Shown here one piece after another: positions 27,690-50,471 of a stretch of DNA of 64,000 nucleotides. Source of the DNA: Brevibacterium sp. RIT 803 (lineage in GTDB: Bacteria > Actinomycetota > Actinomycetes > Actinomycetales > Brevibacteriaceae). A program made the translations under genes and the position numbers. The stretch spans positions 1 to 64,000 of the forward strand of contig NZ_JAFEMW010000005.1 in the NCBI RefSeq assembly GCF_016892625.1, written 5' to 3'. The stretch's first letter is position 1. Each line of letters opens with the position of its first letter. Under the pieces are notes generated by a model, which made no database searches, was not told the DNA's origin, and saw only the letters and a list, made by a program, of their open reading frames with translations.

Positions 27690-29114
27690 TCAGAGCGACG
27701 GATGGGTCCGAGCGTGGTTGGTGACGTTCTCGAAGGCCTGTGCCACCTCGAGCACTCGCTTATCGGCACCGACGGGGCCGATGATCTGCAGTCCCACCGG
27801 CAGCCCCGTTGCGGAGAATCCAGCCGGCACGCTGATCGCCGGGCATCCCGTTGCTGAGATCAGGCTTGTCGCGTGGACCCACGCCATGTAATCACTGATC
27901 GGTTGGCCACAGAGGCTGTCCGGATGGTCGAGTTCGGCTGCAAAAGGTTCCACCTGACTTGTGGTCGTCACCAGCACGTCGTGACGCGAAAAATAGTCCT
28001 GCATCGCCACCCACAGCCGAGCACGAGCGTCGTCAAATGCGAAGAGCTCCTCCACACCCAAGTTCAACCCAGCTTGAATGTTGTCCCGGAGCGAACTTTT
28101 CATCTCGTGCGCATGGCCCCCAACGAGTTGCCCATAGTTCTGAGCGAATTCGTAGGCCCTGGCCACGCGGAACACCTCGACAGCATCGTCGAGTGCTGGG
28201 GCTTCGTGACTCAGTCGGGCACCCAACCCGGCCAGCACAGGACCTGCTGCTCCGACAACCTCAGCTACCTCGTCTTCGACCTCGACCTGGCCACCCAGAT
28301 TCGGCGCGAATCCGATCGCCCATCCCGACAAGTCCTTCCCCGAATCCAGCGTCGAGAACCCTCCCGACTCCACGCGCGCAGCCGGTCCCATGCGATCAGG
28401 TCCGCTGCAGAGATCCATGAGCATGGCGATATCGGCAACCCTGCGAGCCATGAATCCCGGTTGGCTCAGCCACTCCCACGGGTTGCCTGGAGACACATGC
28501 GGTATCCAGCCGTTGGAAGGGCGCAGGCCCACAATATTGTTGAATCCAGCTGGCAGACGCAGTGACCCTCCCGTATCCGAGCCGTCTCCCGCTGCCTGGA
28601 CCCCGCAGGCGATCGCTGCCGCGGCGCCGCCGGACGAACCGGAGGCGGACAGAGCGGTGTCATAAGGGTTACGTGTCGTCCCGAACACGGGGTTGGTGGT
28701 GTGGGCGCCCGCCGCGAATTCAGGCACATTGGTTTTGCCTGTGCTGATCACGCCTGCCGACTTCAGTCTGGACACGATGAGGGCATCCCGGTTCGGCACG
28801 TTCTCAGCAAAGATCGGGGAACCGAATGTCGTCCGCATCCCAGCGGTCTCGTGAGTGTCCTTATGCGTCATCGGGATGCCTGACAAAAGAGGAAGGGCCG
28901 ATCCTCGGGCTCTGAGCTCATCTACCTCCGCCGCCGAGGCGAGCGCACCGTCTGCATCGACTGTGATCACCGCGTTGACAAAAGGATTGATCTCGTCAAT
29001 GCGGAGGAGGTGCGCCTCGACAAGTTCTCGAGAACTCAGTTGACGAGTCGCAAGTGCATCCGCAAGTTCAGCGAGGGACATCCATCGGATGTCCGATTCT
29101 GCACCAAGCGACAC
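27690..29114 (-). CDS. Amidase-signature-family amidase
   Basis: A 474-residue amidase. The Ser-cisSer-Lys triad is present: Lys in MTHKDTHETAG, the cis-Ser and nucleophile in SASGSSGGAAAAIA and GDGSDTGGSLRLPAG. It is the last gene of the permease-hydroxylase operon, with its GTG overlapping the CoxG stop by one base. Its place at the end of a ureide-type pathway suggests it hydrolyses a pathway amide such as oxamate (to oxalate and ammonia) or a carbamoyl intermediate. That substrate is an inference; AS-family enzymes are very broad. RskA is convergent downstream. Confidence 0.88.
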   Translation of the reverse strand: MSLGAESDIRWMSLAELADALATRQLSSRELVEAHLLRIDEINPFVNAVITVDADGALASAAEVDELRARGSALPLLSGIPMTHKDTHETAGMRTTFGSPIFAENVPNRDALIVSRLKSAGVISTGKTNVPEFAAGAHTTNPVFGTTRNPYDTALSASGSSGGAAAAIACGVQAAGDGSDTGGSLRLPAGFNNIVGLRPSNGWIPHVSPGNPWEWLSQPGFMARRVADIAMLMDLCSGPDRMGPAARVESGGFSTLDSGKDLSGWAIGFAPNLGGQVEVEDEVAEVVGAAGPVLAGLGARLSHEAPALDDAVEVFRVARAYEFAQNYGQLVGGHAHEMKSSLRDNIQAGLNLGVEELFAFDDARARLWVAMQDYFSRHDVLVTTTSQVEPFAAELDHPDSLCGQPISDYMAWVHATSLISATGCPAISVPAGFSATGLPVGLQIIGPVGADKRVLEVAQAFENVTNHARTHPSL

Positions 29115-29785
29115 TAGCGGCGTCCGGCCAACAGCCCGACGCAGACTCCGAGCAGGGCCGCACCGGCGCCGACGGCTGCACCCGCCAAGAACTCGCTGCC
29201 TCGCACAGACGTCCCGAGCACTGACCCGGCAGGCTCAGTCACCGGCGTTGCCGGACCTGCAGCCGCTGCAAGACCTGACGATGCTGCGGGCACTGCAAGG
29301 ACATCAGGGGCATCGGCTGTGGCTGTAACGGCTGGCTCCTCGACTCCTTCGTGAATGGCCCGATCGATGTCTTTGAAGAATTTTGTGGCGATGCGTTTTG
29401 CCACGCCGGACAGCATTCGCTGGCCGACGCCGCCGATGGCTCCGCCCAGAACGGCGTCGGCTTCCCAGGTGACCTCGGTACCACCGGCTTCGCCAGGTGC
29501 CAGCGCCACGGTGATATCGGCACCGATGGTCCCCGGCCCGCCAGAACCCTTGGCAGTGAGGACGAACGACGTCGGTGGCTGCTCTTGCGAGAACGCCACC
29601 GAGCCTTTGTAAGTGCCTTTGATCGCCGCCACACCCATGGTCAGAATCACGTGATAGGTGTGGTCGTCTACCGGAGTGAAGCCTTCGACTCCAGGAATGG
29701 TGGCCGCGAGGATCCGGGGGTCGTGGAACGCAGCATATGCGGTGTCAGGATCGGCAGTCATCTGAGCGACGGAAGAGATGTGCAT
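29114..29785 (-). CDS. coxG: CoxG-type SRPBCC protein
   Basis: A 223-residue protein. The N-terminal 150 residues form a CoxG (carbon monoxide dehydrogenase subunit G) START-like domain (MHISSVAQMTADPDTAYAAF ... VGQRMLSGVAKRIATKFF). A Pro/Ala-rich linker follows, and a C-terminal membrane helix (AGAAVGAGAALLGVCVGLLA) with a basic end. CoxG proteins are thought to recruit the molybdenum hydroxylase to the membrane, and the tail anchor fits. It lies 12 bases after coxL and overlaps the amidase start. Confidence 0.87.
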   Translation of the reverse strand: MHISSVAQMTADPDTAYAAFHDPRILAATIPGVEGFTPVDDHTYHVILTMGVAAIKGTYKGSVAFSQEQPPTSFVLTAKGSGGPGTIGADITVALAPGEAGGTEVTWEADAVLGGAIGGVGQRMLSGVAKRIATKFFKDIDRAIHEGVEEPAVTATADAPDVLAVPAASSGLAAAAGPATPVTEPAGSVLGTSVRGSEFLAGAAVGAGAALLGVCVGLLAGRR

Positions 29786-29797
29786 GTGGCGCAGTCC

Positions 29798-32242
29798 TTA
29801 CTTGTGTCCGGCAGTGGATGGGGGTGCAGAATCGGCAGATCCGAGGCCTCCGGCTTTCGGGCCAGGTACTTCACCGGCCGCATGCTTATTCCGCAGTTCC
29901 CAGAGTGTGGAAGGATCAAGTGGCATGGCACGGATGGGGAAGCCTTCGGCGTCTTCGATGGCCGATGCGATTGTCGTGGCTGTCGGAATTGTTCCGGCCT
30001 CTCCTGCACCTTTGATGCCCAGGGGGTTGAGCGGGCTGGGAGTCTCCAGATGATCGGTCTCAACATAGGGAATCTCAGACGCGAAGGGCATCAGGAAGTC
30101 CATGAAGGAAGCATTGAGCAGCTGCCCGTCCTCGTCGTAGGCCATCCGTTCGTAGAGCGCTCCTCCCACACCTTGGGCGACACCGCCATGGACCTGTCCT
30201 TCGACGACCATCGGGTTGATCATCGGCCCGCAGTCGTGGACGACGCAGTAGCGAAGGATCGTGATGTCGGCAGTCTCTGGATCGGTTTCGACGATCGCGG
30301 CATGCATGCCGTTGGCCACGGTGGACCGCAGCGGCGAGAAGAACTCCTGCTCTTCCAGGCCCGGCTGCTCGCCCGGCTTCACTGAGGGTTCCTCTGCGTT
30401 GGACTCCTTGGCGAACTGGGTTGCGGCCTTGGCACTCTCATCAAACGCGTATCGCAGGGGATTCGACAGAACCGACACCGCGGCCAAGGGCATGGCGGCA
30501 CTGGGGTCGCCTTTGACGGAGATGATCCCATCAATGATCTCCAGATCCTCCGGATCAGCCTCCAGAGACTCACCGGCAATCGTCAATGCCTTGGCCTTGA
30601 CCTTCTGAGCCGTCAGGTGCAGGGCGTTGCCTGCCATCACGGCTCCTCGCGATCCCCACGTCCCGACCGAGTACGGAAGTTTGCGGGTGTCTCCTGTCGC
30701 CACATGCACTGTGTCGATGGGCACGCCGAGAGCATCGGCGACGATCTGAGCGAATACAGTCGCATGCGCCTGTCCGTGGGTTGTCAGCCCAGTCCAGACG
30801 TTCACCCGTCCAGAGGATTCGACCTCGATATGACCGCCTTCATAGGGTCCGGCACCGGTGCTCTCCACATAGCATCCGATCCCCAGACCGACTGTGCGGC
30901 CCTCGGCTCTGGCCTGGTCCCGATAGGCTTCGAAATCGTCCCAACCGACGAGGGCTTTGAGCTTGTCGAGGGAGGTCACGAAGTCACCCGAGTCCAGACA
31001 GCCTTCCGCACCGTCTTGCATGGTCACTCCCATCGGATGGGGGAACTCGCGGACGAAGTTGTTCAGTCGTACCTGTGTGCGATCCATTCCAAGTTCGTCG
31101 GCGATGGCGTCGACGGTGCGCTCCATCATGAACACCGCATGGGCGCGACCGGCGCCTCGATAGGGAGTGACCATGACAGTGTTGGTGTACAGAGACCAGT
31201 ATTCGACTCGATAGTTAGCGATGTTGTAGGGGCCCGTGACATGCGTCGACGTGTTGAGCGGGACGATGACGCCGTAAGGAATGTAGGCCCCGTTGTCGTG
31301 CCAGAACTTCACATCCAGGCTGAGAATCCGACCGTCATCGTCGAACCCGACTTTCACACTCTGAGTCTGTGCTCTCTCATGCGCCGAGGAAATGAAGTGT
31401 TCGCGCCGGTCCTCGGTCCATTTCACCGTCGTTCCAAGTGCCCTGGCGGCACACGCCACGGCCAGTTCTTCCGGCCAGGGGTGGTTGATCTTGACTCCGA
31501 AGGCACCGCCGACATCGGGGGTGATGACTTCGACGCGAGTCAGGGGGATCTCCAGCCTCGCTGCCAACGCAGCTCGCAACCCGGTGCTGGTCTGGGTTGA
31601 GGAATGGACCTGGAGACTTTCGTCCTCCCGGTTCCAGGCTGCGATGACGCCTTTGCCTTCCATCGGCATGCAGGCGCTGCGCTCGAACTCCAGGTCAAGG
31701 TCGAGAGTATGTGGGGCCCGGTCCAACCCCGAAGCAACGTCCCCGACCTCTTGGACGTAGTGGGCTGCCACGTTATCGTCCATTCCGGCGTGAACGATTC
31801 GCTGCCCTTCACGTGACTGTTCGACACCGACGATCGGGTCGAGGAACTCATAGTCGACCTCGATCCTCCCAGCCGCGTCTTCAGCGATGTAGCGGTCGCG
31901 GGCGATGACCATGACGATCGGTTCGCCGACGAAGTTCACGTGGTCTTGGGCCAGGGCGAAACCGGTGTGAGGTGCCACGATGGATGGGTGGGGGATCAAC
32001 ATGGGCAGGCGATCTGCTGCCTGACCGGGCAGATCTTCGTGGGTCCAGACAGCGATGACGCCTTCGACGTCGATGGCACCTGTGACGTCGATATCGACGA
32101 TGTCGGCGTGGGCATGGGGGCTGCGCACGAAGGCCGCGGCCACGCTGCCGTTGGCCAGATCATCAAGATATCGACCATTACCGGTGACCAGTCGCGGATC
32201 TTCGCGACGTTTGATCTTCTGGCCGAACATACGCGTGGTCAT
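29798..32242 (-). CDS. Molybdenum hydroxylase large subunit (CoxL-like, form II)
   Basis: An 814-residue Mo-molybdopterin-cytosine-dinucleotide-binding subunit of the xanthine dehydrogenase/CO dehydrogenase family. The active-site loop reads YRGAGR (about residue 361), as in form II CoxL-like proteins, and not the cysteine-bearing loop of true CO dehydrogenase. It should therefore hydroxylate an organic ring or aldehyde. The C-terminal GIKGAGEAGTI carries the catalytic glutamate region. The ATG overlaps the coxS stop (ATGA). With the small and medium subunits, permease and PucR regulator it makes a purine- or pyrimidine-like ring the likely substrate. Confidence 0.9.
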   Translation of the reverse strand: MTTRMFGQKIKRREDPRLVTGNGRYLDDLANGSVAAAFVRSPHAHADIVDIDVTGAIDVEGVIAVWTHEDLPGQAADRLPMLIPHPSIVAPHTGFALAQDHVNFVGEPIVMVIARDRYIAEDAAGRIEVDYEFLDPIVGVEQSREGQRIVHAGMDDNVAAHYVQEVGDVASGLDRAPHTLDLDLEFERSACMPMEGKGVIAAWNREDESLQVHSSTQTSTGLRAALAARLEIPLTRVEVITPDVGGAFGVKINHPWPEELAVACAARALGTTVKWTEDRREHFISSAHERAQTQSVKVGFDDDGRILSLDVKFWHDNGAYIPYGVIVPLNTSTHVTGPYNIANYRVEYWSLYTNTVMVTPYRGAGRAHAVFMMERTVDAIADELGMDRTQVRLNNFVREFPHPMGVTMQDGAEGCLDSGDFVTSLDKLKALVGWDDFEAYRDQARAEGRTVGLGIGCYVESTGAGPYEGGHIEVESSGRVNVWTGLTTHGQAHATVFAQIVADALGVPIDTVHVATGDTRKLPYSVGTWGSRGAVMAGNALHLTAQKVKAKALTIAGESLEADPEDLEIIDGIISVKGDPSAAMPLAAVSVLSNPLRYAFDESAKAATQFAKESNAEEPSVKPGEQPGLEEQEFFSPLRSTVANGMHAAIVETDPETADITILRYCVVHDCGPMINPMVVEGQVHGGVAQGVGGALYERMAYDEDGQLLNASFMDFLMPFASEIPYVETDHLETPSPLNPLGIKGAGEAGTIPTATTIASAIEDAEGFPIRAMPLDPSTLWELRNKHAAGEVPGPKAGGLGSADSAPPSTAGHK

Positions 32243-32793
32243 TGAGACACCTCCGGGGCGTCCTTGCCACAGCAATCCTGGCCACAGCCGCCACGCAGTT
32301 CGGCCGTACGCTGCACTGCCTTGACGATGTTCTGGTAGCCGGTGCACCGGCAGAGGTTGCCGGAGATCGCCTCCCGAGCCTCTTCTTCGCTCGGGTGCGG
32401 GTTTTCGTTCACGAAGGCGTCGATGGTGGTGATGAAGCCCGGAGTGCAGAAGCCGCATTGCAGCCCATGGGAATCGATGAAGGCCTGCTGCACGTCGGCA
32501 GGGTTCTCCGGATCGTCTCCGATTCCTTCAACGGTGGTGACCTCATGACTCTGTGCGCTGGCGGCAAAGATCAGACAGGACCGGATCGGATCACCGTCAA
32601 GCTGCACTGTGCAGGCACCGCAGACCCCGTGCTCGCAGCCGACGTGGGTACCGGTCAGTTCCAGATCCTGACGCAGCACGTCGGAGAGAAGTTTGCGATC
32701 CGGCACATCGAGGACATGGTCTTTGCCGTTGACGCTCAACCGGATGGTCGATCTCGGTTCGGCCGCTGCCTCAGCAGCGCTCATCTGGGTCAT
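32239..32793 (-). CDS. Molybdenum hydroxylase [2Fe-2S] small subunit (CoxS-like)
   Basis: A 184-residue iron-sulfur subunit. The plant-type cluster uses Cys53, 58, 61 and 73 (GCEHGVCGACTV). The second cluster uses Cys113, 116, 148 and 150 (CGFCTPGF, NLCRCTGYQNI). A tail with three more cysteines (GGCGQDCCGKDAP) is not part of the usual fold and is odd. I prefer the ATG at 32793, with GAAGG and AAGGAG upstream; a GTG at 32826 overlapping the coxM stop would add 11 residues. It passes electrons between the Mo and FAD subunits. Confidence 0.92.
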   Translation of the reverse strand: MTQMSAAEAAAEPRSTIRLSVNGKDHVLDVPDRKLLSDVLRQDLELTGTHVGCEHGVCGACTVQLDGDPIRSCLIFAASAQSHEVTTVEGIGDDPENPADVQQAFIDSHGLQCGFCTPGFITTIDAFVNENPHPSEEEAREAISGNLCRCTGYQNIVKAVQRTAELRGGCGQDCCGKDAPEVSQ

Positions 32794-32822
32794 CGTGCTT
32801 CCTTCTCCTTGCCTGTCGCTGC

Positions 32823-33815
32823 TCACTGTCCACCGCTGAGGACTGACACACCACGCGCGTTCTTGGGCCTGCTCAATCGCTTGAGCAGGCGTCCAGCGAG
32901 GACTCCGGTGAGATGCCGGCGATAATCGGCGCTGGCGTGGATGTCTCCCTCCGGGTCAATGAAATCCTTGATCGCCGAGGCGACAGCGTCGACGATCGTA
33001 TCCACACGATCCACGGGGGTGCCCGCGACGACGTCGTCGAGTTCAATGATGTCCGGGGTGTCCGTGACTGACACGAATCCCGCCTTCAGCCCTGTGATCG
33101 TGGCCGCTGTGCCTGCAGCCCCGGAACTGGCAGGGTCGACATTGTCGACATAGTCTGCTCGGTCGGAAGTGCTGGCAAAGTCAGTGTTGTCGGTCGACAT
33201 GATCAGTCCGACCCCGGCCAGCCCGTAGTCACCGCTGCGGCGCGCCAGTTCGTCGAATCCGGCCCTCTGTCCTGGCTGCAGGGAGGGGAAGCTCGCCTCG
33301 GTGATGAGCTCCTCGGGTTCCAGACTGGTCTCCAAGGGACCGACGTTGAGTTCGTCTGCGGTGAGTGTGCGGGTACCGGTCAGACTCCTGACCTTCACGC
33401 GGCCACCCGTCAGCGCCAGAATCATCGGCATCTCACCGTTCGGGTCGGCATGGGCAATCGAGCCGACTGTGGTTCCCCGGTTCCTTATCGCCGGGTGAGC
33501 GACGTGTCCGAGCGCTTCACCGAGAACCGGATTCGCGCAGGCGGCACCCGGGTCGCGCTCGAGTCGTCGGTGACTCACGAGCGCACCGACCGTGATCTCC
33601 GTCTCCGTTGCTGTCAGTCCGTCGAGCCCCTCGACGGCAGTGATGTCGATGAGGTTCTTCGGAGATGCCAGGCGCATATTGAGGACCGGAACCAGGCTCT
33701 GTCCCCCGGCGATGATCTTTCCATCTGATGCATGCGCTGCAAGCAGCTCCAGGGTGTCCTCAACGGTCTTCGGACGGTGAATCCTCAGAGGAGAAGGCTT
33801 CATTGTCTCAGTCAC
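32823..33815 (-). CDS. Molybdenum hydroxylase FAD-binding subunit (CoxM-like)
   Basis: A 330-residue FAD-binding subunit of the CoxM/XdhB type. The two FAD motifs are AGGQSLVPVLNMRL (about 36-49) and RNRGTTVGSIAHADP (about 110-125). A CO dehydrogenase flavoprotein C-terminal domain follows. A region at about 200-240 contains an insertion rich in Asp, Thr and Ser (STDNTDFASTSDRADYVDNV), longer than I would expect. Its ATG overlaps the permease stop (ATGA), which ties uptake to oxidation. Confidence 0.92.
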   Translation of the reverse strand: MTETMKPSPLRIHRPKTVEDTLELLAAHASDGKIIAGGQSLVPVLNMRLASPKNLIDITAVEGLDGLTATETEITVGALVSHRRLERDPGAACANPVLGEALGHVAHPAIRNRGTTVGSIAHADPNGEMPMILALTGGRVKVRSLTGTRTLTADELNVGPLETSLEPEELITEASFPSLQPGQRAGFDELARRSGDYGLAGVGLIMSTDNTDFASTSDRADYVDNVDPASSGAAGTAATITGLKAGFVSVTDTPDIIELDDVVAGTPVDRVDTIVDAVASAIKDFIDPEGDIHASADYRRHLTGVLAGRLLKRLSRPKNARGVSVLSGGQ

Positions 33816-35275
33816 TCATCTTTCGTTCTGCGAAGCTTGCGATCTTGTTCGAGGTCAGCGGTGACCCGGGCCCTCTGCCCTTCGCCTCCAATGTTGAGCC
33901 CAGCACCATCAGCCGGATCATCCAGCAGTTCTTTCGGCGCCAGCCAACGCGCAACATGGTACATGACCAGCATCGATATCGTACCCAGGGCAATTCCGGA
34001 GAGGACGAAGTCGTCAGTGAACTCCAGGCTGACGTCACCGATGGCGATGATCAGTCCAGCCGCGACCGGAACGATGTTGAGCGGGTTGGCGAAGTTGACT
34101 CGGTTCTCGATCCAGATCTTCGCACCCAGCATGCCGATCATTCCGTAGAGGACCACCGTGATGCCGCCGAGGACTCCGCCCGGAACCGATGATATGAGTG
34201 CGCCGAACTTCGGTGAGAAGCCGAAGCAGATGGCAACAAGGGCAGCCACCCAGTAGGCAGCGGTGGAGTAGACGCGTGTGGCCGCCATGACTCCGATGTT
34301 CTCAGCATAGGTTGTCGTCGGTGAGCCTCCGACCGAGGTGGCGACGACAGTGGCGACACCGTCGCCCAGGACCGCGCGACCCATGTATTTGTCGAGCTTC
34401 TCACCGGTCATCTCCTCGACGGCTTTGACGTGTCCGGCGTTCTCGGCGACAAGGGCGATGATGCCCGGCAGCATGACGACGATCGCTGCCGCGTTGAAGA
34501 CAGGAAGGTGAACTCCGACGACACCTGCAGCAGTGTCGGTCATGGGCGGGAACCCGATCCACGCGGCTGACTCGATGGCGGAGAAGTCGACGCGGAAGTG
34601 CGTGGTCACTTCCCCGGCTGCTGCGCTGAACGAGGTGATCTGACCGAACATCTTGTCGAAGAGCCAGGAGACTCCGTAGCCGAGGATGAGGCCGAGGAAC
34701 ACTGCGATGCGACCAAGGAATCCTCGCGCCCAGACGGAGAGGAAGACGATGAAGACCATGACGATGACCGCGACCCACTGGTCCTGGGGCCAGTAGGTGT
34801 TCGCGACGACCGGGGCCAGGTTGAAGCCGATGAGCATGACCACTCCGCCGGTGACGACGGGTGGGAGAACCTTCGTCAGCGCGGATGCCCCGATGTAGTG
34901 GATGAACACACCGACGAGAGCGAGGATGACGCCAGAGATCATGATCGCACCGGTCACCTCGGCGGGGGTGCCGCCCTGTGCGGTGACAGCGGTGACGCCT
35001 CCGACGAATGCGGCGGAGGTGCCGACGTAGCTGGGCACCTTGCCCTTGACGATGAGAAGGAAGATGATGGTGCCGAATCCCGACATCATGACGGCCAGCT
35101 GGGGGTTGAGCCCCATGATGATGGGGAACACGAAGGTGGCCCCGAACATGGCTACCACGTGCTGAGCGCCAAGGCCGATCGTTCGACCCCAGGTCAGACG
35201 CTCGTTGGGTTTGACGAACTCGCCTGGGGCGACAGTCTTGCCATCCCCGTGCAACGTCCATGAAAACATCGACAT
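33812..35275 (-). CDS. NCS2-family xanthine/uracil-type permease
   Basis: A 487-residue nucleobase permease with about 12-14 membrane segments. The NCS2 features include GLGAQHVVAMFGATFVFPII near the start and VGGSPTTTYAENIGVMAAT (the QNxGxxxxT-type motif, here with Glu). Relatives carry uracil, xanthine or urate. The ATG at 35275 has GAGGAG just upstream. It is the first gene of a six-gene operon permease-M-S-L-G-amidase and sets the likely substrate class of the whole island as a nucleobase or ureide ring. Confidence 0.9.
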   Translation of the reverse strand: MSMFSWTLHGDGKTVAPGEFVKPNERLTWGRTIGLGAQHVVAMFGATFVFPIIMGLNPQLAVMMSGFGTIIFLLIVKGKVPSYVGTSAAFVGGVTAVTAQGGTPAEVTGAIMISGVILALVGVFIHYIGASALTKVLPPVVTGGVVMLIGFNLAPVVANTYWPQDQWVAVIVMVFIVFLSVWARGFLGRIAVFLGLILGYGVSWLFDKMFGQITSFSAAAGEVTTHFRVDFSAIESAAWIGFPPMTDTAAGVVGVHLPVFNAAAIVVMLPGIIALVAENAGHVKAVEEMTGEKLDKYMGRAVLGDGVATVVATSVGGSPTTTYAENIGVMAATRVYSTAAYWVAALVAICFGFSPKFGALISSVPGGVLGGITVVLYGMIGMLGAKIWIENRVNFANPLNIVPVAAGLIIAIGDVSLEFTDDFVLSGIALGTISMLVMYHVARWLAPKELLDDPADGAGLNIGGEGQRARVTADLEQDRKLRRTKDE

Positions 35276-35445
35276 GTGTTTCTCCTCATCGTTGAGAAAG
35301 GCCCGGTGCAGACATTTCGACACGTGTGTTCCTGCAGCCGCCGGTCACGAAACATCTCGACTCACACCCCGACTCTATTGGGATGCTGAGGCACACATCA
35401 CGTCAGATCCTGCCAAATATACCCATGGCTCGTCGGCAGTCTTTG

Positions 35446-37164: not shown

Positions 37165-37199
37165 GCATTGACGATAGCAGGTCACGATAACCTGTCGAA
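37165..37199. promoter_or_regulatory. 35-bp bidirectional leaderless promoter with inverted repeat
   Basis: Between the ATGs of pucR (minus) and allH (plus) there are just 35 bases. On the minus strand TATCGT (37176-37171) is 6 bases from the pucR ATG. On the plus strand TAACCT (37188-37193) is 6 bases from the allH ATG. The inverted repeat CAGGT-N7-ACCTG (37178-37194) overlaps the allH -10 box and abuts the pucR one. One bound protein could therefore switch both genes. PucR as the binder is inferred. Confidence 0.6.
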
Positions 37200-41223: not shown

Positions 41224-41240
41224 TTCGCTTCAACCTCGGT

Positions 41241-41274: not shown

Positions 41275-41275
41275 G

Positions 41276-42520: not shown

Positions 42521-43724
42521 TCGTCATCGTCTCCTTCACTGCGCTCTGGCCCAGGCTTGCCGGATCCGGATGTCGGCTCATTCCATCCTTGCTCGTTCCA
42601 TCCCGGCTCTGCCTCGCCGTATCCCGTCTCACGCTGGAAGCGATGTTCTCTGCCACTGCCTGCCACCCGTCAACTGTGGTGGCGGGAAGCATCACCTGCG
42701 CATATTCCTCCGCGATCCGCATACCTCGCACCTCCGGAGTGAAGCCGGCACGCCCCGCACGAGGATTCACCCAGATGAATCGGTGGCTCAGTCTCCTCAG
42801 CCGTGCGCACGCGCGGCGCAGTTCGGAGCAGTCGCCCTGTTCCCAGCCATCGCTGATGAGGACGAGCACCGATCCGCGGATCGCCTCTCGATGTCCCCCG
42901 TTGAGCAGGGTGAGCAGTCCTTCTCCGAGGCGGGTCCCGCCGGCCAGGTCGGGAATCATCTCCTGCGCCGCCAGCAATTCACGGTCATTCAACGGTGCAC
43001 AGAAGTGATGGTCGACTCGAGTCAGACGAGTTCCCAGAGTGAAGCTTCGTGCCTTGAGTCTTGGCGTGGCTCGAGCCAGGAATCGGATGAGTGCCGGCAG
43101 CCATTGCTTCATTGAGGCTGAGACATCGACGATGATCGTGGCATCTCGATCGCGTTCTCGGCGGGTTGACCGCGGCAGACGAGAGAGTTCTTCCTGCCGA
43201 ATCAGGGTCTTCACGATCTGGTTCGCATCGATTCTTCCGAAACTGCTGCGCCTGTCTGCATACGCACTGCGACGTGGGTTGTGAAAAGACAGGCCATCGA
43301 TCAGACGTACCGCCTCCGCCGCATGTTCTCCGTTGCCGAGGTCGGTGGTGCGCAGGACCTCGAGCCGGCTGGCAGCGGCTTGGAGCGCCATTGTCTGGTC
43401 TTCGACGTGATCCCATTTCGCCGAGTCACTCGACTCTTCGCTGGGCTCCGGAGTCGGGATCAACACCTCGTGAGGGCTCGGTGCCGCTCGGTGTCGCCCG
43501 GTGAGACCGAAATGCTGGTTGAAGAGGGCATCGTGGATCGGAATATGTTTCTGCTCCGTGCAGATCAATGACCGCGAGGCAGCACGAACCTGGGTTGGGT
43601 CCAGCGGGTCGATGAGGGCGAGTGCGCCGGCCAGAGTCCGGATCCTGTCTGCACCGGCAGGCAGTCCATGTCGGCGCAGACGTGAGCCGAAGCGCATCAG
43701 CTCGGCGGGCAGGTCGCTCATCAC
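42513..43724 (-). CDS. VWA domain (CoxE-like) protein
   Basis: A 403-residue CoxE-type protein with a C-terminal von Willebrand A domain. The metal-binding MIDAS motif is DVSASM in DATIIVDVSASMKQWLPAL; the second part is DLAGGTRLGEGL and SDGWEQGD. In CO dehydrogenase operons CoxE works with the CoxD ATPase to mature the Cu/Mo site or related cofactors. GTG at 43724 overlaps the moxR stop as GTGA; an ATG at 43721 follows at once. Confidence 0.88.
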   Translation of the reverse strand: MMSDLPAELMRFGSRLRRHGLPAGADRIRTLAGALALIDPLDPTQVRAASRSLICTEQKHIPIHDALFNQHFGLTGRHRAAPSPHEVLIPTPEPSEESSDSAKWDHVEDQTMALQAAASRLEVLRTTDLGNGEHAAEAVRLIDGLSFHNPRRSAYADRRSSFGRIDANQIVKTLIRQEELSRLPRSTRRERDRDATIIVDVSASMKQWLPALIRFLARATPRLKARSFTLGTRLTRVDHHFCAPLNDRELLAAQEMIPDLAGGTRLGEGLLTLLNGGHREAIRGSVLVLISDGWEQGDCSELRRACARLRRLSHRFIWVNPRAGRAGFTPEVRGMRIAEEYAQVMLPATTVDGWQAVAENIASSVRRDTARQSRDGTSKDGMSRHPDPASLGQSAVKETMTNG

Positions 43725-44632
43725 TGGTCGACCAGACTGTTCGGACTCAGATCGCTGAGATCATCGGCATCTTTGAGAACTGCGGAAATCGTCGACCGCA
43801 CGGCCGCCTCATCGAGTTCACTGATTCCCAGCGCCGCGAGCGCGCGGATCCAGTCGATGGTCTCCGAGGTCCCCGGAGGTTTGATCAGGGTCTGCGCCCG
43901 CAGACGAGTCGCAGCTCGAACCACGGCGGCTCGCAGCGCTTGGGAAGAAGCTGGGACATGATGAGCGAGTATTCTCTCCTCCGTCTGGGCATCAGGTTGT
44001 GAGAACCAGTGGTAGACGCAGCGGCGTTTGAGCGCGTCGTGAAGTTCACGCGTGCGGTTGGAGGTCAGGATCACCAAGGGCGGGGTCGGCGTGTGAATGG
44101 TGCCCAGCTCGGGAACTGTCACAGACCAATCCGAAAGGACCTCAAGCAGGAGAGCATCGAATTCGTCGCCGGCACGGTCGATCTCATCGATGAGCAGCAC
44201 AGGACGCCGAGGTTGAGCATCAGCTCCTTCGTTTCGTGAACTTTCGATCGCCTGGAGGATAGGTCGTCTGAGCAGAAATGGCAGGCTGTGGAGTTCATCG
44301 TCGAGGCGTGTGGCATCGAGCCGTTGAGCCGATGCCTTCGCCGCTGCTTCGATGGTCCGGACGTGGAGAATCTGTTTGGCGAAGTCCCAGTCGTAGAGTG
44401 CATGGGTCGCGTCGAGCCCCTCGTAGCACTGCAGACGGATCAGTTCGGTGCCGTGGACTTCGGCCAGCGCCTTGGCCAGGCTGGTCTTGCCCACTCCGGG
44501 CGCTCCTTCGCACAAGAGCGGCTTGTCGAGTGCTCCCGCGAGGAAGCTTGCGGTGGCAAGGGAATCGTCGGCCATGTACCCCACGTCTCCCAGGGCCTTC
44601 GCCAGGTCGATGGCGCCGGTGTATTCAGGCAT
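43721..44632 (-). CDS. MoxR-family AAA+ ATPase (CoxD-like)
   Basis: A 303-residue MoxR-type AAA+ ATPase. Walker A is EGAPGVGKTSLAKAL, Walker B is VLLIDEIDRAGDEFDALLLE, and sensor/arginine-finger segments follow (LTSNRTRELHDALKRRC). MoxR/VWA pairs act as chaperones for metal-cofactor insertion; here the pair should serve the molybdenum hydroxylase. The ATG at 44632 has GGAATGAG upstream; GTG at 44638 is an alternative. It overlaps the mocA stop. Confidence 0.9.
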   Translation of the reverse strand: MPEYTGAIDLAKALGDVGYMADDSLATASFLAGALDKPLLCEGAPGVGKTSLAKALAEVHGTELIRLQCYEGLDATHALYDWDFAKQILHVRTIEAAAKASAQRLDATRLDDELHSLPFLLRRPILQAIESSRNEGADAQPRRPVLLIDEIDRAGDEFDALLLEVLSDWSVTVPELGTIHTPTPPLVILTSNRTRELHDALKRRCVYHWFSQPDAQTEERILAHHVPASSQALRAAVVRAATRLRAQTLIKPPGTSETIDWIRALAALGISELDEAAVRSTISAVLKDADDLSDLSPNSLVDQ

Positions 44633-45299
44633 GATCACTCATTCCGGTGGTGGGCAGAACCAATCCTTGTGCTTGTGCATCTGCCGGAGTGTCGACATCC
44701 CTGTTCCCCGTGACTCCAGGCGCCAACAGATCTCCGCACTCGATGTCGAGGACCTGACACGACCGTTCTCTGAACAGACTCCTCGCCCCTCTATCCTCGT
44801 GACAGGCCGCGATCGCTTCCGAGATCAGGTCCCTGCCGATCATCACAGGGTGCCCGAGTGCCGTGTTCCACGTGCAGCGCGCCAAAACCTCGGTGCCGGA
44901 GTGCTCAACCAATCGACGGTAGGCCTCGACAGGAGTCTCGGGTAGGTCGACCAAGGTCACGATGGCCGCTTCGGCATCGGCGGCGACTGCCCGCAAGCCC
45001 ACCTGCAGCGATGACCCCATCCCCGAGGCGAAGTCAGGGTTCTCGACCACACGTGCTTTGGCCGGCACCAGGGGTCTCGCCACATCGGCAGACGCCCCGA
45101 GAACCACGATGATCTCCAGCGAGTCCTCGGACTGCTGCACCTCGCCCCAAGCATGCGCCGCAGCCATCGTGTGCACATGGTGTTCGAGCACCGAGGTCCC
45201 CGAACGCAGTCGCAGCAGCGCCTTGGGCGCACCCATCCGGCTGCCGCTGCCTGCCGCCAACACGATCATGCTGACCTTGCGCTTCATCGCCCTCACCAT
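44625..45299 (-). CDS. MobA-like NTP transferase (molybdenum cofactor cytidylyltransferase MocA-like)
   Basis: A 224-residue nucleotidyltransferase. The nucleotide-binding loop is IVLAAGSGSRMGAPKALL, a second motif is NPDFASGMGSSLQVGLRA, and the metal-binding Asp is in VTLVDLPETPVEAY. MocA makes the cytosine dinucleotide form of the molybdenum cofactor that CoxL/XdhA-type enzymes use, which fits the island. It lies 11 bases after carbamate kinase and overlaps moxR. ATG at 45287 is an alternative start. Confidence 0.85.
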   Translation of the reverse strand: MVRAMKRKVSMIVLAAGSGSRMGAPKALLRLRSGTSVLEHHVHTMAAAHAWGEVQQSEDSLEIIVVLGASADVARPLVPAKARVVENPDFASGMGSSLQVGLRAVAADAEAAIVTLVDLPETPVEAYRRLVEHSGTEVLARCTWNTALGHPVMIGRDLISEAIAACHEDRGARSLFRERSCQVLDIECGDLLAPGVTGNRDVDTPADAQAQGLVLPTTGMSDHA

Positions 45300-45310
45300 G
45301 GATATCGATT

Positions 45311-46294
45311 CTAGGCGTGTTCTGCCAAGGTCGAATCTCGGGCAGCCCCGGTCACATCGTCGTCAACAGGTGTGACCACGGTTCCGGAGCTGCCTGCCAC
45401 AGCCTCGGGGAGATTGCCGAGAGCAGCGATGACACCCATCGGTCCACCGTCGTCGACGAAGTTGAGAACAGCATCGACCTTGGGGCCCATCGAACCCGAG
45501 GCGAAGGTGCCTGTGTCCTTGAGCTCGCGCAGCTGGGCGTTCGTGACTTTCGTGATGTCACGGGCCTCGGGAGTGCCGAACCCCGCGACGGCACAGGGCA
45601 CATCGGTGGCGATGATGAGTCGATCGGCCTTCACCGAGCGTGCCAGCTGCGCCGCGCTGAGGTCCTTGTCGATGACCGCGGAGACTCCGTTGAATCCTTT
45701 CTCATCGGGGATGACTGGGATTCCGCCACCGCCTGCCGCGACGACGACCACCCCGGAATCCGCCAGGAACTCGATCGTCGGGGTCTCGAGGATCCGCACC
45801 GGGCGAGGCGATGCGACAACCCGACGCCACCCTCTGCTGCCGAAGTCCTTCCATGTCTGCCCCAGCTCCTCCATCGCAGCCGCATAGTTCCGAGGCTGAT
45901 AGGAGCCGATCGGTTTGACCGGATCCGTGAAGGCCGGATCGTCAGGGTCGACGACGGTGCGGGTAATCAGTGCAACGACGCTCTTGGCAATCCCTCGAGA
46001 ATTCAGCTCCTTCTCGATCCTGCTCACGATAGTGAAGCCGATGGTGCCCTGGGTCTGGGCCCCGCACCAGTCGAGGCTGACTGGGGGCAGTTCCGCGACG
46101 GCAAGCTCGTTCTTGCGCATGATGTTGCCGACCTGCGGCCCATTCCCATGGGCGACGACGAGTTCGTGTCCGTCGTCGATGATATCGGCGAGATGGACGG
46201 CCGCCTGGGCGATGGCACGGCGCTGGCTCTCCGGTGACGCGTCACCATCAGAGGAGGTCATCGCGTTGCCGCCGAGGGCGACGAGGACTCTCAC
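45311..46294 (-). CDS. arcC: Carbamate kinase
   Basis: A 327-residue carbamate kinase, which makes ATP from carbamoyl phosphate and ADP. The family motifs are VLVALGGNAM, VAHGNGPQVGN, the substrate loop region with GGGGIPVI, and FASGSMGPKVDAVLNF. GTG at 46294 overlaps the hyuB stop as GTGA. In E. coli the matching gene (ybcF/allK) stands beside fdrA-ylbE-ylbF. Here it lies in the convergent hydantoinase operon, but the same partnership with oxamate carbamoyltransferase is very likely. No arginine deiminase genes are near. Confidence 0.93.
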   Translation of the reverse strand: MRVLVALGGNAMTSSDGDASPESQRRAIAQAAVHLADIIDDGHELVVAHGNGPQVGNIMRKNELAVAELPPVSLDWCGAQTQGTIGFTIVSRIEKELNSRGIAKSVVALITRTVVDPDDPAFTDPVKPIGSYQPRNYAAAMEELGQTWKDFGSRGWRRVVASPRPVRILETPTIEFLADSGVVVVAAGGGGIPVIPDEKGFNGVSAVIDKDLSAAQLARSVKADRLIIATDVPCAVAGFGTPEARDITKVTNAQLRELKDTGTFASGSMGPKVDAVLNFVDDGGPMGVIAALGNLPEAVAGSSGTVVTPVDDDVTGAARDSTLAEHA

Positions 46295-48330
46295 AGCCAG
46301 TCCACCTCGGGTGCACTGGCACCGTCACCAGCCAACTCGGCGTAGCCGGGCCCTCTGTCGAAGAAGGGTTCGTTCTCTCCACGTTCGGTGAGCAGGCGTG
46401 CACGCAGCGACTCCGAAGCCGCCGCGTCGACGGTGGCGTTCTCGATTCCCTCCGGGCCCTCGGTGACGATGACACCATAGGACTCTTCGGCCGCTGCGAT
46501 ACTCACCTTGCCCCACTGGACGTCGCGGACGACTTCGGCGAAGGGACGCTGGAGCGGGTCTCCCCAACCGCCGCCGCCGGTCGTGCGGATCCGCACGACC
46601 TCGCCGGCGCTGATCGGCTCGTCATCGGCCAGCGCATCGATTTCGCGTTCGTTCGCACCACCCGGGTCGATGGTGACTTGGAAGGGCTGTCCGGCCTTAC
46701 CACCTTTGACTCCCCAGCAGGCGAGGATCGATCGGTCGGCGATCGACATGAAGTGACCATCGCGCAGCATCCTGATGTGCTTCTCGTAGCCGAGTCCGCC
46801 ACGGTAGCGACCAGCCCCGCCGGAGTCGACAGACAGGCCGAGGCGTTCAACGCGAAACGGGAACCTGGACTCCGTGAACTCTGTCGGCAGATTCCGGGAG
46901 TCGGGGACCACGTGGATCGTATCTTCACCGTCGGAGTAGTAGCGTCCACCGGAGCCGCCGCCGAGGACCTCGCGCATGAGGTAATCGTTGCCGTCGCGGT
47001 CCTTGCCGTAGACGCCGGTGTAGCGGATGGTCTCCTGGTCAGCAGGCATCTGCCCGTCGACTGCCTTCGCCACCACGCCGGCCAGCACGCCGAGAAGGCG
47101 CAGAATGACGAAGGTGCGTGCGTTCGTAGGACCTGGGAACTCGGGCGTAAGCAGGGTCCCCTTCTCCGGGAAGCGCATCTCGATGAGGGGGACGATTCCC
47201 TCGTTGACGTCGAGTTCACCCATGCGTTCGGGGCTGTCGGCGAGGTTGCGCAGGATCGGTGCCAACCACTTCTTGAGGAAGTTTCCGCCCACATAGTCAC
47301 CACAGTGGTTGATCGGCCCTGCAGCCTGAGCCGCGGTGCCGGTGAAGTCGATGATGAGACGTGGACCGTCGTCGGGGCCGCCGGTTGAGGTCTTGGTCAG
47401 GGTGATCCTCTGTGTGTGCAGCATCGGGTCGGAGACTCCGTCGTGTTCGGCGTAGTCCTCCCATACGTACTGGCCATCGGGGATCTTCGACAGGATCTCG
47501 CGGCGGTAGATCTCCGTGGAGTTATCGAGGATGGTGTCGAAGGCGGCCTCGACGGTGTCGACGCCGTAGCGGGTGAACAGTTCGGTCAGACGCCTGGCGC
47601 CCATGAGGCAGGCAGAGCATTCCGCATCGAGATCTGCCGAGAGCGAGTCGGGCATGCGCGAGTTGCGCGTCATGATGGCCAGTGCCGACTTGTTCGGCTT
47701 CCCCGCGTCCCAGAGTTTGATCGGGGGGATCATCAGGCCCTCTTCGAAGACGCTGGTAGCACCAGAGGGCATCGATCCGGGGCAGGCTCCGCCGATGTCA
47801 TCGTGGTGGCCGAACGCCTGGACGAAGCAGACGACCTCACCGTCGGCGAAGACCGGCACGGTCACGCACATATCTGGAAGGTGGCCGATTCCGCCCTCAG
47901 AGGCGTAGACGTCGTTGTGGAAGAAGACATCGCCTTCCTGCATCTCCTCGATCGGGAAGTCGCGGACGATGGGATGGACGAGTGCCGAATATGAGCGACC
48001 TGTGAGCTTGCGCAGCTGCCGGTCATGGATTCCCGCTCGGAAATCGTGAGCGTCGCGGATCATCGGTGACCGCGAGGTTCGGGCAATCGCGGTCTCGACC
48101 TCCATTTCGACACTGGCCAAGGTGCCTTCGACGATCTCGACGATGATCGGGTCAACCGTCGAAGCCTTCTGCCTCGATGTCAGACGGTTGCCATGTTCAT
48201 AAGCCGTTGGCAGACCTGCGGGGTTGATCGGGTCAGCGTTGATGTAATCGGTCAGCGCCTGCCCTGTCAACGGAGTGAGGCTGAGCATCGACCCGGAGTC
48301 GGGTGCTGCGGTCTGGTCAGTGATCGTCAT
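46291..48330 (-). CDS. hyuB: Hydantoinase/oxoprolinase subunit B
   Basis: A 679-residue HyuB-type subunit. The EGDVFFHNDVYASEGGIGHL metal-site region, GGACPGSMPSGATSVFEEGL, and the C-terminal GGGGWGDPLQRP are typical. It pairs with HyuA to open cyclic imides, lactams or hydantoins using ATP (relatives include N-methylhydantoin hydrolase, 5-oxoprolinase and acetone carboxylase). It overlaps hyuA by 4 bases (ATGA) and carbamate kinase by 4 (GTGA). Its length is larger than many HyuB (about 520-600) because of extra N-terminal residues. Confidence 0.9.
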   Translation of the reverse strand: MTITDQTAAPDSGSMLSLTPLTGQALTDYINADPINPAGLPTAYEHGNRLTSRQKASTVDPIIVEIVEGTLASVEMEVETAIARTSRSPMIRDAHDFRAGIHDRQLRKLTGRSYSALVHPIVRDFPIEEMQEGDVFFHNDVYASEGGIGHLPDMCVTVPVFADGEVVCFVQAFGHHDDIGGACPGSMPSGATSVFEEGLMIPPIKLWDAGKPNKSALAIMTRNSRMPDSLSADLDAECSACLMGARRLTELFTRYGVDTVEAAFDTILDNSTEIYRREILSKIPDGQYVWEDYAEHDGVSDPMLHTQRITLTKTSTGGPDDGPRLIIDFTGTAAQAAGPINHCGDYVGGNFLKKWLAPILRNLADSPERMGELDVNEGIVPLIEMRFPEKGTLLTPEFPGPTNARTFVILRLLGVLAGVVAKAVDGQMPADQETIRYTGVYGKDRDGNDYLMREVLGGGSGGRYYSDGEDTIHVVPDSRNLPTEFTESRFPFRVERLGLSVDSGGAGRYRGGLGYEKHIRMLRDGHFMSIADRSILACWGVKGGKAGQPFQVTIDPGGANEREIDALADDEPISAGEVVRIRTTGGGGWGDPLQRPFAEVVRDVQWGKVSIAAAEESYGVIVTEGPEGIENATVDAAASESLRARLLTERGENEPFFDRGPGYAELAGDGASAPEVDWL

Positions 48331-50471
48331 TTGCCTGCCTCCTGGCGTTTGCGGCGAGTGGTGATGATGTTGCCGCCGGCATCGATGCGAGCGGTGAATC
48401 CCGGGTGCAGCGGGAAGGTCGAGCCGAACTCTTCGACGATGGCCGGACCTTCCAGGGTGTCTCCTGCCAGGAGACTCTCACGCCAGTACACGGCGGTGTC
48501 GACGTATCCGTCCTCGGCGTCGAAGCAGACTGGTCGCACAGCGGTCTGTGCACGTTCGGACTTATCCGGCGCACCCTCGGCTGATGCGATGTGGCGAAGC
48601 TCCGGACGGGTGATCGGACCGATGCCTGAGACCCGGACATTGACCCATTCCACGTGCTGGTCCGACGCATCGGCGAAGTCATAGCCGTAGAGCTGCCTGT
48701 GCTCGGCGTGGAATGCCCGTGTCACCTCGTCGGCCCATTCTCGGGTGATCGTGCCCGAAGGAGCGGGCACGCGGACCTCGAAGGCCTGACCGAAGTAACG
48801 GAGGTCGACGGAGCGGTCGAACTGATGGCGTTCTGGCGTGAATCCCTCGTTGATCAGGGCCTCGGTTGCCCGAGTCTGGAGACGTTCGAAGAGGCCTGCG
48901 ACCTCAGCGATGTCCAATCCGTCATCGCGTGCGACGTTCGTCTGAACATAGTCGTTCTTGACGTCGACGGTGAGGAGACCGAAGGCGGAGACGTTTCCAG
49001 GGTTAGGCGGAACGACGACGCCGGCAAGGTCGAGGATGTCGACGAGCGTGCAGGCCAGCAGCGAGCCGGAGCCTCCGAAGGTGGTGAGCATGAAGTCACG
49101 GACGTCGAGGCCACGTTGGACCGAGATCTGGCGTAGGGCGTTGGCTTGGTTCCAGGCAGAGATCTCGAGGATTCCGGTCGCGGCCTTCTCCGTGCTCAGG
49201 CCGAGCTTTGCGGCGATTTCGCTGATGCCGCGACCAGCGGCATCAGCGTCGAGGGGGATCTCTCCGCCGAGGAGGTGGGGCGGGATCCGCCCGAGGAAGA
49301 CGTGGGCATCGGTGATGGTCGGTTCCACCCCGCCGTTGCCATAGCAGATGGGCCCCGGGTCTGCTCCTGCCGACTGAGGACCGACCTTGAGCTGTCCTTC
49401 GGCCGTGGTCCAGGCGATCGAGCCGCCGCCGGCACCGACGGTGACGACGTCGATCATGGGGATCTTGGACGGATAGACACCGACCGAGCCTTCGGTCGTC
49501 AGAGCAGGCTCTCCGTCGACGACAACGGTGACGTCCGTCGAGGTGCCGCCGCCGTCGCAGGTCAGGACCTTGTCGAATCCGGCTTCCCGCGCGATGAGTC
49601 CGGCACCCAGTGCACCGGCGGCAGGGCCGGAGAGCACCGTGGTGATGGGCTGGTTGACGACCTCATCTGCGGAGAGGACGCCGCCGTTGGACTTCATGAT
49701 GTAGAACGGCAGCTTGGCATCCTTGTCGGTGCCGGTATAGGCCTCGAGGCGCTCATGGATGTTCTTGACGTACGTGGAGACTTTGGGTTTGACTGCGGCG
49801 TCAACCAAGGTCGTCATCGATCGTTCGTATTCGCGGTATTCGCGCAGCACTTCCGAACTCAGGGACACAATGACGTCGGGGTGCTCTTCGAGGAGGATCT
49901 CGCGCATCCTCTGCTCATGGGCGGGGTTCGCGTAGGCGTGGAGGAAGTTGACTCCCAATGTGCTGATTCCCTGGTCCCGGAACCAGCGGGCGACCTTGCG
50001 TGCCTCGACTTCGTCGAAGGGACGCACTTCGTTGCCTTCGAAGTCCATGCGGCCGGTCACAGTCTTGACGAGGTCCGCGGGTACGATGCGGTCGGGCTTG
50101 ACCCAGAAATAGGAGTTTCCGTACCCGTCGGGTACTGCCTGTCGGGCGATTTCGAGCACGAATTCGTAGCCCTCGGTGGTGATGAAGCCGAGACGATCGA
50201 GCTTGCCTTCGAGCAGCTGATTGGTAGCGACGGTGGTTCCATGGCTGACCGCACTGATATCGGAGGCCGTGATCGTCGCGGAGTCCTGATCGGTGCCCAA
50301 CATGTCGAGTACCTTGTCAATGCCGTTGATGAAGCCATCAGCGGGATTCGACGGTGTCGAGGGAGTCTTCGTCGTGGTGAGCTCACCGGTGGCTTCGTTG
50401 AAGGCCACCACATCTGTGAACGTGCCGCCGGTGTCGATACCGATACGGATTCGTGGGCTTTGAGTCGACAT
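48327..50471 (-). CDS. hyuA: Hydantoinase/oxoprolinase subunit A
   Basis: A 714-residue HyuA-type subunit of the ASKHA ATPase fold. The first phosphate loop is RIGIDTGGTFTDVVAF and the second CDGGGTSTDVTVVVDGEPAL. SVGVYPSKIPMIDVVTVGAGGGSIAW is the classic HyuA core. I start at the ATG at 50471, with AAGGA upstream, not the TTG at 50474. It is the first gene of a seven-gene operon (hyuA, hyuB, arcC, mocA, moxR, VWA, xdhC). It should open the ring made by the molybdenum hydroxylase. Confidence 0.92.
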   Translation of the reverse strand: MSTQSPRIRIGIDTGGTFTDVVAFNEATGELTTTKTPSTPSNPADGFINGIDKVLDMLGTDQDSATITASDISAVSHGTTVATNQLLEGKLDRLGFITTEGYEFVLEIARQAVPDGYGNSYFWVKPDRIVPADLVKTVTGRMDFEGNEVRPFDEVEARKVARWFRDQGISTLGVNFLHAYANPAHEQRMREILLEEHPDVIVSLSSEVLREYREYERSMTTLVDAAVKPKVSTYVKNIHERLEAYTGTDKDAKLPFYIMKSNGGVLSADEVVNQPITTVLSGPAAGALGAGLIAREAGFDKVLTCDGGGTSTDVTVVVDGEPALTTEGSVGVYPSKIPMIDVVTVGAGGGSIAWTTAEGQLKVGPQSAGADPGPICYGNGGVEPTITDAHVFLGRIPPHLLGGEIPLDADAAGRGISEIAAKLGLSTEKAATGILEISAWNQANALRQISVQRGLDVRDFMLTTFGGSGSLLACTLVDILDLAGVVVPPNPGNVSAFGLLTVDVKNDYVQTNVARDDGLDIAEVAGLFERLQTRATEALINEGFTPERHQFDRSVDLRYFGQAFEVRVPAPSGTITREWADEVTRAFHAEHRQLYGYDFADASDQHVEWVNVRVSGIGPITRPELRHIASAEGAPDKSERAQTAVRPVCFDAEDGYVDTAVYWRESLLAGDTLEGPAIVEEFGSTFPLHPGFTARIDAGGNIITTRRKRQEAGK

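Follow-up and report, generated by a model that had tools for sequence, protein, structure and literature searches.

The window analysed here is the 64,000-nucleotide stretch at positions 1 to 64,000 of contig NZ_JAFEMW010000005.1 of Brevibacterium sp. RIT 803 (assembly GCF_016892625.1). It contains an island of genes for a nucleobase permease, a CoxMSL-type molybdenum hydroxylase with its maturation factors, an AllFGH-type transcarbamylase, a carbamate kinase (ArcC) and the cyclic amide hydrolase HyuAB, arranged around a PucR-type regulator (Table 1). An earlier note on this DNA, here called the original prediction, had described three operons around PucR that would break down a cyclic ureide. 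The genes it named were all present at the positions and on the strands given in Table 1, with family matches far above chance, and strand and spacing fit the three operons. We conclude that the island is best interpreted as a form of oxidative pyrimidine degradation for which we found no earlier description.

Table 1. Genes and promoter motif copies of the island, with their positions in the window.
Feature	Position	Strand	Family match or remark
Amidase-signature hydrolase	27690..29114	-	PF01425 307 bits; proposed malonamate amidohydrolase
CoxG	29114..29785	-	PF06240 79 bits
CoxL-type molybdenum hydroxylase large subunit	29798..32248, start approximate	-	PF02738, PF20256, PF01315; proposed uracil/thymine dehydrogenase
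CoxS [2Fe-2S] subunit	32239..32826	-	PF01799, PF00111
CoxM FAD subunit	32823..33815	-	PF00941, PF03450
NCS2 nucleobase permease; nearest relatives of the uracil type	33812..35323, likely ATG 35275	-	PF00860; TIGR03616 RutG
Promoter motif copy 1, upstream of NCS2-coxMSLG-amidase	35402..35417	-	YTTGGCANNNYYTGMC
PucR-type regulator	35446..37215	-	PF07905, PF13556, PF17853
Promoter motif copy 2, PucR/AllH divergence	37147..37162	+	YTTGGCANNNYYTGMC
AllH subunit	37200..38237	+	PF11392 72 bits
AllF-AllG fusion	38221..41223	+	PF06545 298 bits; proposed ureidomalonate transcarbamylase
XdhC-type maturation factor	41276..42520	-	PF02625, PF13478
CoxE-type VWA protein	42513..43724	-	PF05762
MoxR/MadB-type AAA ATPase	43721..44638	-	NF047784 254 bits (cut-off 475)
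MocA-like cytidylyltransferase	44625..45299	-	PF12804; TIGR03310 92 bits (cut-off 186)
Carbamate kinase (ArcC)	45311..46294	-	TIGR00746 336 bits (cut-off 358); NF009007 287 over 266
HyuB, predicted ATP-dependent cyclic amide hydrolase subunit	46291..48330	-	PF02538 457 bits
HyuA	48327..50471	-	PF01968 293 bits, PF05378, PF19278; N-methylhydantoinase 7hk5 472 bits
Promoter motif copy 3, upstream of HyuA operon	50553..50568	-	YTTGGCANNNYYTGMC

The AllF, AllG and AllH domains and the carbamate kinase all lie within reach of one another, and the AllG and AllH Pfam models score over their cut-offs. AllF and AllG are fused in a protein of 1000 residues, to which the FdrA model NF004760 gives 400 bits (cut-off 433) and whose solved kin are 3clq and the FdrA structure 3dmy. 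The FdrA, MadB and MocA models and one of the two carbamate kinase models fall under their curated cut-offs; family membership is clear. The domain set of HyuAB is complete (Hydant_A_N, Hydantoinase_A, Hydant_A_C and Hydantoinase_B), and HyuA reaches 527 bits where the caprolactamase cut-off is 1000. The best NCBIfam match of the NCS2 permease is the RutG model TIGR03616 (363 bits, short of the cut-off of 759); against solved permeases it scores 173 bits to the uracil permease UraA and 53 to the uric acid-xanthine permease. The open reading frame (ORF) of CoxL (29798-32458, 886 residues) begins inside coxS, and because its homology starts only at about residue 71, the true start was placed at about 32,248-32,242.

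The window contains three copies of the motif YTTGGCANNNYYTGMC, one in the promoter of each operon (NCS2, AllH and HyuA), against an expectation of 0.03 for the window; this count is partly circular since the pattern was derived from these three promoters. For that reason, the whole genome and the loci of other organisms were the better checks. The 4.48-Mb genome holds four sites, three of them in the window, and the reversed pattern gave one. In the 80 barbiturase loci of other organisms described below there were 10 matches; 60 permuted patterns gave a mean of 0.63 and a largest count of 9. In these other genera five matches lie 36-70 bases before ArcC, two before HyuA and one at the start of CaiB, on either strand, and two (L167 and L185) do not precede a tracked gene. 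A further match lies 35 bases before HyuA in L046, a locus outside the 80-locus set. Co-regulation, which the original prediction had left open, is supported by the motif before all three operons, which are probably controlled together.

The comparison of neighbourhoods across actinobacteria that the original prediction had proposed showed that these genes do co-occur. AllG was found in 20 of 198 genomes of the order, the RIT 803 genome included. For 16 of the 19 others the neighbourhood could be followed over 19,999 bases or more; the remaining three (G016, G056 and G163; 8.8-11.7 kb) were too fragmented for judgement. The NCS2 permease, PucR and CoxMSLG accompany AllFG in 14 of these 16 genomes, and HyuAB and carbamate kinase are also present in the fetched stretches of 12 of the 14. 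These data support a single co-conserved catabolic system, widely conserved across actinobacteria.

As for the hydrolase of the first operon, the window-type amidase was present in the fetched stretches of G042, G156 and G178 and a nitrilase-type hydrolase in those of seven genomes. The two were never found together, and neither was found in the stretches of 4 of the 14 core genomes. In all four genomes in which it was traced (G017, G023, G122 and G150), the nitrilase-type gene directly follows coxG. A beta-lactamase-like protein was considered as a replacement for the amidase and rejected, as G017, G108 and G164 carry the nitrilase-type hydrolase as well. Several large ORFs close to the clusters of the relatives matched no Pfam family and are probably wrong-frame calls. 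In the amidase tree the window protein sits on a long branch, and the tree did not settle its position relative to the Rhodococcus amidase.

The relatives also provided the gene that points to pyrimidine metabolism as the likely setting of the island. In the operons of two of them a ring-opening amidohydrolase of family PF09663 adjoins the carbamate kinase. This enzyme scores 683 bits to the barbiturase 5hwe of the PDB and at most 320 bits to cyanuric acid hydrolases (CAH). The barbiturase signature of Bar comprises Asn194, His324, Lys328, Val348 and Ser349 in the available part of PMC3758960, and the first four of these positions (N190, H320, K324 and V344 of alignment A1) are invariant in all seven aligned relatives. 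At the position of the CAH Arg, barbiturase is given Gln in the part of PMC4051656 seen and Asn in that of PMC3758960; the relatives' chains show Asn. By these comparisons the relatives' enzyme is a true barbiturase rather than a cyanuric acid hydrolase. PF09663 was found in 15 of the 19 other AllG-positive genomes of the order, with identities to the 683-bit barbiturase of 82-100% in 13 genomes, 80% in G178 and 74% in G006. Among 396 genomes sampled from the phylum, PF09663 was found in 26, AllG in 49 and both in 21 (Fisher p = 4e-17, kinship ignored); where both were present, they shared a contig in 16 genomes and lay no more than 20 kb apart in 14. In G418, which belongs to the same phylum only, the set forms nearly one run of about 35 kb (L115 and L282), in the order PucR, barbiturase, permease, ArcC, AllF, AllG, a GGDEF-type gene, CoxM, CoxS, CoxL, CoxG, amidase, HyuA, HyuB, CaiB, MoxR and VWA.

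Some PF09663 members were less clear. The proteins at 11205-12557 of L050 and 5322-6668 of L045 score over the cut-off of NF052395 (cyanuric acid amidohydrolase), which for L050 conflicts with the comparison with PDB chains. L147 (G108) and L132 (G246) hold more distant members, 36-39% identical to barbiturase and possibly of the cyanuric acid hydrolase type; the one in L132 lies near an isochorismatase-family gene.

The 80 named barbiturase loci were the best 80 of 552 candidates from a scan with the barbiturase alignment, and neighbour counts in them are lower bounds, as flanks extended at most 10 kb from barbiturase. Within that distance we found ArcC in 75 loci, HyuB in 52, CaiB in 49, HyuA in 44, CoxG in 21, and CoxL and AccDA in 19 each. 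The distance between AllFG and barbiturase is usually larger (27 kb in G150, 28 kb in G001 and 44 kb in G017). Whole genomes were searched for 36 of the 80 loci, isolates only, leaving aside metagenome-assembled and uncultured records and some isolates. AllG was present in 32 of the 36, a share biased upwards since the loci were the top matches to an alignment made from genomes that carry AllG. The four genomes without AllG (Rhodococcus sp. IEGM 1409, Rhodococcoides fascians, R. erythropolis and Haloechinothrix halophila) are exactly those of the 36 in which an amidase immediately follows barbiturase and the locus has no ArcC (Fisher p = 1.7e-5, for a contrast that was picked post hoc and in which three of the four are close kin). 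In R. erythropolis NBRC 15567 (L188) the order is XdhC, PucR, NCS2, AccDA, CaiB, a second PucR, barbiturase, amidase, a second NCS2, CoxM, CoxS, CoxL (58%), CoxG and the start of HyuA; AllFGH and ArcC were not found in its 21 kb. The simplest reading is that AllFGH with carbamate kinase and the barbiturase-adjacent amidase would be alternative ways to break ureidomalonate, in which case this amidase is likely to be the ureidomalonase.

We studied the history of the window genes in an unrooted AllG tree of 78 rows, obtained from 117 matches of at least 330 aligned residues after removal of duplicates; it omits 22 lower-ranked matches of the phylum scan and 10 from the 36-genome search that were without a locus. 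The window AllG groups with those of two barbiturase-less congeners and then with that of G006, a barbiturase-bearing member of the same genus (100/100), and the next neighbour of the group is the barbiturase-bearing G616 (100/99). The E. coli AllG lies elsewhere, on a long branch among rows of barbiturase-less genomes. From this placement, the window AllFGH most likely descends from a barbiturase-associated AllFGH, barbiturase having been lost in RIT 803, G042 and G156.

The remainder of the RIT 803 genome holds further candidate components. Kin of CaiB (69%) and AccDA (65%) lie side by side on another contig, and as companions of the island they would fit conversion of malonate through malonyl-CoA to acetyl-CoA better than use of oxalate. 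In RIT 803 this pair (7217-12130 of L269, contig C10) is flanked by a hisF/hisA-type gene on one side and hisG on the other, a slot that in G023 and G004, there with hisF- and hisG-type neighbours, is occupied by the stretch of the island that runs from AllFG to barbiturase. On contig C8 an allantoinase (564 bits over 358) adjoins a glyoxylate carboligase match of 617 bits, under the cut-off of 711 and partial in the stretch fetched, a pairing that suggests a glyoxylate route. No AllD over its cut-off was found in the genome, where the only Ldh_2 protein over the Pfam cut-off scores 99 against 496, and no protein in it meets the dihydropyrimidinase cut-off. AllFGH as a sign of allantoin use was rejected, given the allantoinase and carboligase match elsewhere and the AllD that was not found.

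Based on the co-conservation with barbiturase, the shared motif and the placement of the protein families, we consider it likely that the island serves oxidative catabolism of uracil and thymine with a phosphorolytic, ATP-yielding branch; each reaction, and the direction in which AllFGH works, is proposed from these data. The NCS2 permease would import uracil or thymine, and CoxMSL, matured by MocA, XdhC, MoxR, VWA and CoxG, would hydroxylate C6 to give barbiturate or 5-methylbarbiturate, a role suggested by its neighbourhood, by where it lies in R. erythropolis and by the N-heterocycle chemistry known for its solved relatives. The ring would then be opened to ureidomalonate or ureidomethylmalonate, by barbiturase in most relatives and by the ATP-dependent HyuAB in RIT 803, in whose island HyuAB is the sole ring opener seen. 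AllFGH with phosphate would convert ureidomalonate to malonamate and carbamoyl phosphate; such a splitting of N-carbamoyl-malonamate is proposed by analogy with the E. coli oxamate transcarbamylase, which splits N-carbamoyl-oxamate in the available part of PMC11326118. Carbamate kinase would turn carbamoyl phosphate into ATP, CO2 and NH3, the amidase would release NH3 from malonamate, and the malonate would become acetyl-CoA through the CaiB CoA-transferase and AccDA encoded elsewhere in the genome.

Several observations weigh against this pathway. Only 2 of the 80 named loci have AllFG within 10 kb of the barbiturase gene, and in the phylum sample the partner is absent from 5 of the 26 genomes with PF09663 and 28 of the 49 with AllG. 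Within the order, HyuAB and ArcC were not found within 45 kb in G049 and G093, and G132 and G149 carry a divergent AllG, the rest of the set not being found in their fetched stretches. A scan of the RIT 803 genome for PF09663 gave no match; the model matched no control genome there either, yet it detected the enzyme in the relatives counted above. PF09663 was also not found in the congeners G042 and G156. In the part of PMC11326118 seen, activity of AllFGH was measured only on oxamate and oxalurate, and the CoxL protein scores well over the cut-off of a CO dehydrogenase model (considered below). Lastly, HyuAB is kept alongside CoxMSLG even where barbiturase is present. It thus need not open barbiturate, and this is the weakest step of the scheme; HyuAB may act on 5-methylbarbiturate derived from thymine, may open barbiturate in different conditions, or may have another role altogether. 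Replacement of barbiturase by HyuAB everywhere was rejected, as 10 of the 12 HyuAB-bearing core genomes of the order also have barbiturase. A broader version, that AllFGH enzymes are general acylurea transcarbamylases acting after ring-opening amidohydrolases and that the ATP-driven HyuAB replaced barbiturase in the window lineage, is tentative, and we put its chances at well under even. If it were true, ring opening would spend ATP that the urea moiety repays, and the substrates of AllFGH would span ureidomalonate in this island, a product of cyanuric acid on the Aminobacter plasmid described below and oxalurate in E. coli.

The alternative that survives best supposes that thymine is mainly used and that HyuAB, rather than barbiturase, is the candidate for opening 5-methylbarbiturate in all species; barbiturase-bearing species would use uracil as well, and RIT 803 would either have kept only the thymine arm or rely on HyuAB for both. 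This would explain the coexistence of HyuAB and barbiturase and is consistent with HyuB showing no jump where barbiturase is missing (98% identity to the two barbiturase-less congeners and 85% to the barbiturase-bearing G006). We nevertheless regard it as rather unlikely.

The oxidative pyrimidine reading also has to be weighed against the route of the original prediction, in which a hydantoin-like ring would be oxidised to parabanate and opened by HyuAB to oxalurate, on which AllFGH would act as in E. coli. The E. coli AllFGH is indeed an oxamate transcarbamylase in the part of PMC11326118 available, N-methylhydantoinase is the nearest relative of HyuA among solved structures, and barbiturase was not found in RIT 803 or its two congeners. 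However, the AllG of the window clade nests among those of barbiturase-bearing genomes, apart from that of E. coli, and the CoxMSL-HyuAB-AllFGH set accompanies barbiturase in other genomes. The CaiB-AccDA companions would suit malonate over oxalate, the permease is of the uracil type, and the genome has its allantoinase beside the carboligase match on another contig, with no AllD over the cut-off found. Together, these data make oxalurate an improbable intermediate. The idea of a cyclic-ureide system with ATP recovery, built from a molybdenum hydroxylase, HyuAB, an AllFGH-type enzyme and carbamate kinase, was supported, while hydantoin or parabanate as its ring was not; most likely the right kind of system had been recognised with the wrong ring. 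The suggestion that carbamate kinase repays the ATP spent by HyuAB could hold in the barbiturase-less species, although most HyuAB-bearing relatives have both ring openers.

Cyanuric acid or another triazine as the substrate, with the barbiturase homologues being cyanuric acid hydrolases, appears very improbable. NF052395 does name the relatives' enzymes as the cyanuric acid type (474-486 bits over 360), and a plasmid of Aminobacter sp. SR38 joins AllFGH genes and carbamate kinase to a TrzD-type enzyme, but the scores of 683 and 320 bits and the invariant Asn, His, Lys and Val argue for barbiturase, and a molybdenum hydroxylase would have no apparent role on cyanuric acid. That CoxMSL is an aerobic CO dehydrogenase in a coincidental neighbourhood is hardly credible: the NCBIfam model NF040766 (CO dehydrogenase subunit) gives 1400 bits over 950 and the CO dehydrogenase chain scores nearly as well as the nearest solved chain, quinoline 2-oxidoreductase (404 and 409 bits), but the active-site loop reads PYRGAGR, with Gly aligned to the loop Cys of CO dehydrogenase, and the genes are linked to barbiturase and HyuAB across families. 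The loop Cys that marks form I CO dehydrogenase, whose motif we take to be AYRCSFR, is thus absent from the window CoxL. The NF040766 label on 29798-32458 despite this Gly is possibly a common mislabel.

To our knowledge, the genes for uracil/thymine dehydrogenase and ureidomalonase have never been assigned. The neighbourhoods described here give candidates for both, CoxMSL for the former and the Rhodococcus barbiturase-adjacent amidase for the latter. They also indicate a second, ATP-conserving cleavage of ureidomalonate, which, subject to the upward bias of the 32 of 36 genomes with AllG, would be the commoner one among the barbiturase genomes searched. Oxalurate should not be assumed by default for FdrA/DUF1116/DUF2877 genes, and CoxL labels may conceal pyrimidine hydroxylases.

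The oxidative pyrimidine route through barbiturate was described in the 1950s, and the R. erythropolis pathway, comprising oxidation to barbiturate, barbiturase and ureidomalonase, is attributed to Soong et al. 2001 and 2002 in the available part of PMC3758960. R. erythropolis NBRC 15567 shares with the island the permease type, the molybdenum hydroxylase, a HyuA near barbiturase and the presumed intermediates barbiturate and ureidomalonate. It differs in having the barbiturase-adjacent amidase where the island has AllFGH and carbamate kinase; in RIT 803, the barbiturase gene that marks the classical pathway was not found and urea would not form. The window does have an amidase, after coxG (the equation of ureidomalonase with the barbiturase-adjacent amidase being itself a proposal). 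E. coli allFGHK (PMC11326118, part available) has the same three subunits with carbamate kinase, and the same acylurea chemistry is proposed here. In contrast to it, the window AllF and AllG are fused, AllG belongs to a distant branch, ureidoglycolate dehydrogenase is not nearby, and the relatives' genes are linked to barbiturase. Both HyuAB subunits share Pfam domains with the N-methylhydantoinase/caprolactamase/5-oxoprolinase superfamily, from which they are set apart by association with a molybdenum hydroxylase and pyrimidine genes. In the literature searched, no paper tied AllFGH or carbamate kinase to barbiturase or pyrimidine oxidation; Soong 2001/2002 and Seffernick 2012 lay outside that search, and priority is not established. 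The nearest was PMC12625717, which in the part available associates allFGHK with the biuret genes of nitrifiers and assigns them to oxalurate; the available parts of PMC7662398, PMC11898903 and PMC3961730 contained nothing on an AllFGH-barbiturase link.

The Aminobacter plasmid (pSR8, L283) shares with the barbiturase-bearing relatives a ring-opening amidohydrolase in company with fdrA, DUF1116, DUF2877 and arcC. Its enzyme is of the cyanuric acid type and its transporter an ABC transporter, and neither a molybdenum hydroxylase nor HyuAB was seen in the 23 kb shown. The run at 10001-22420 comprises fdrA, DUF1116, the TrzD-type gene (810 bits to 5t13), arcC, an amidohydrolase, the ABC transporter and DUF2877. 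Pairs of fdrA and DUF1116 also occur on plasmids of Citrobacter, Klebsiella and Enterobacter (L284, H5-H15), with 39% identity over 99% of the window fusion; in L284 the pair is followed by arcC and a LysR-type gene.

Beyond the island, an NmrA-like protein (50600-51676) adjoins HyuA and has homologues in 23 of the 80 barbiturase loci. Directly past the island lies a two-component pair (51658-53700) with weak matches to the MadS and MadR models.

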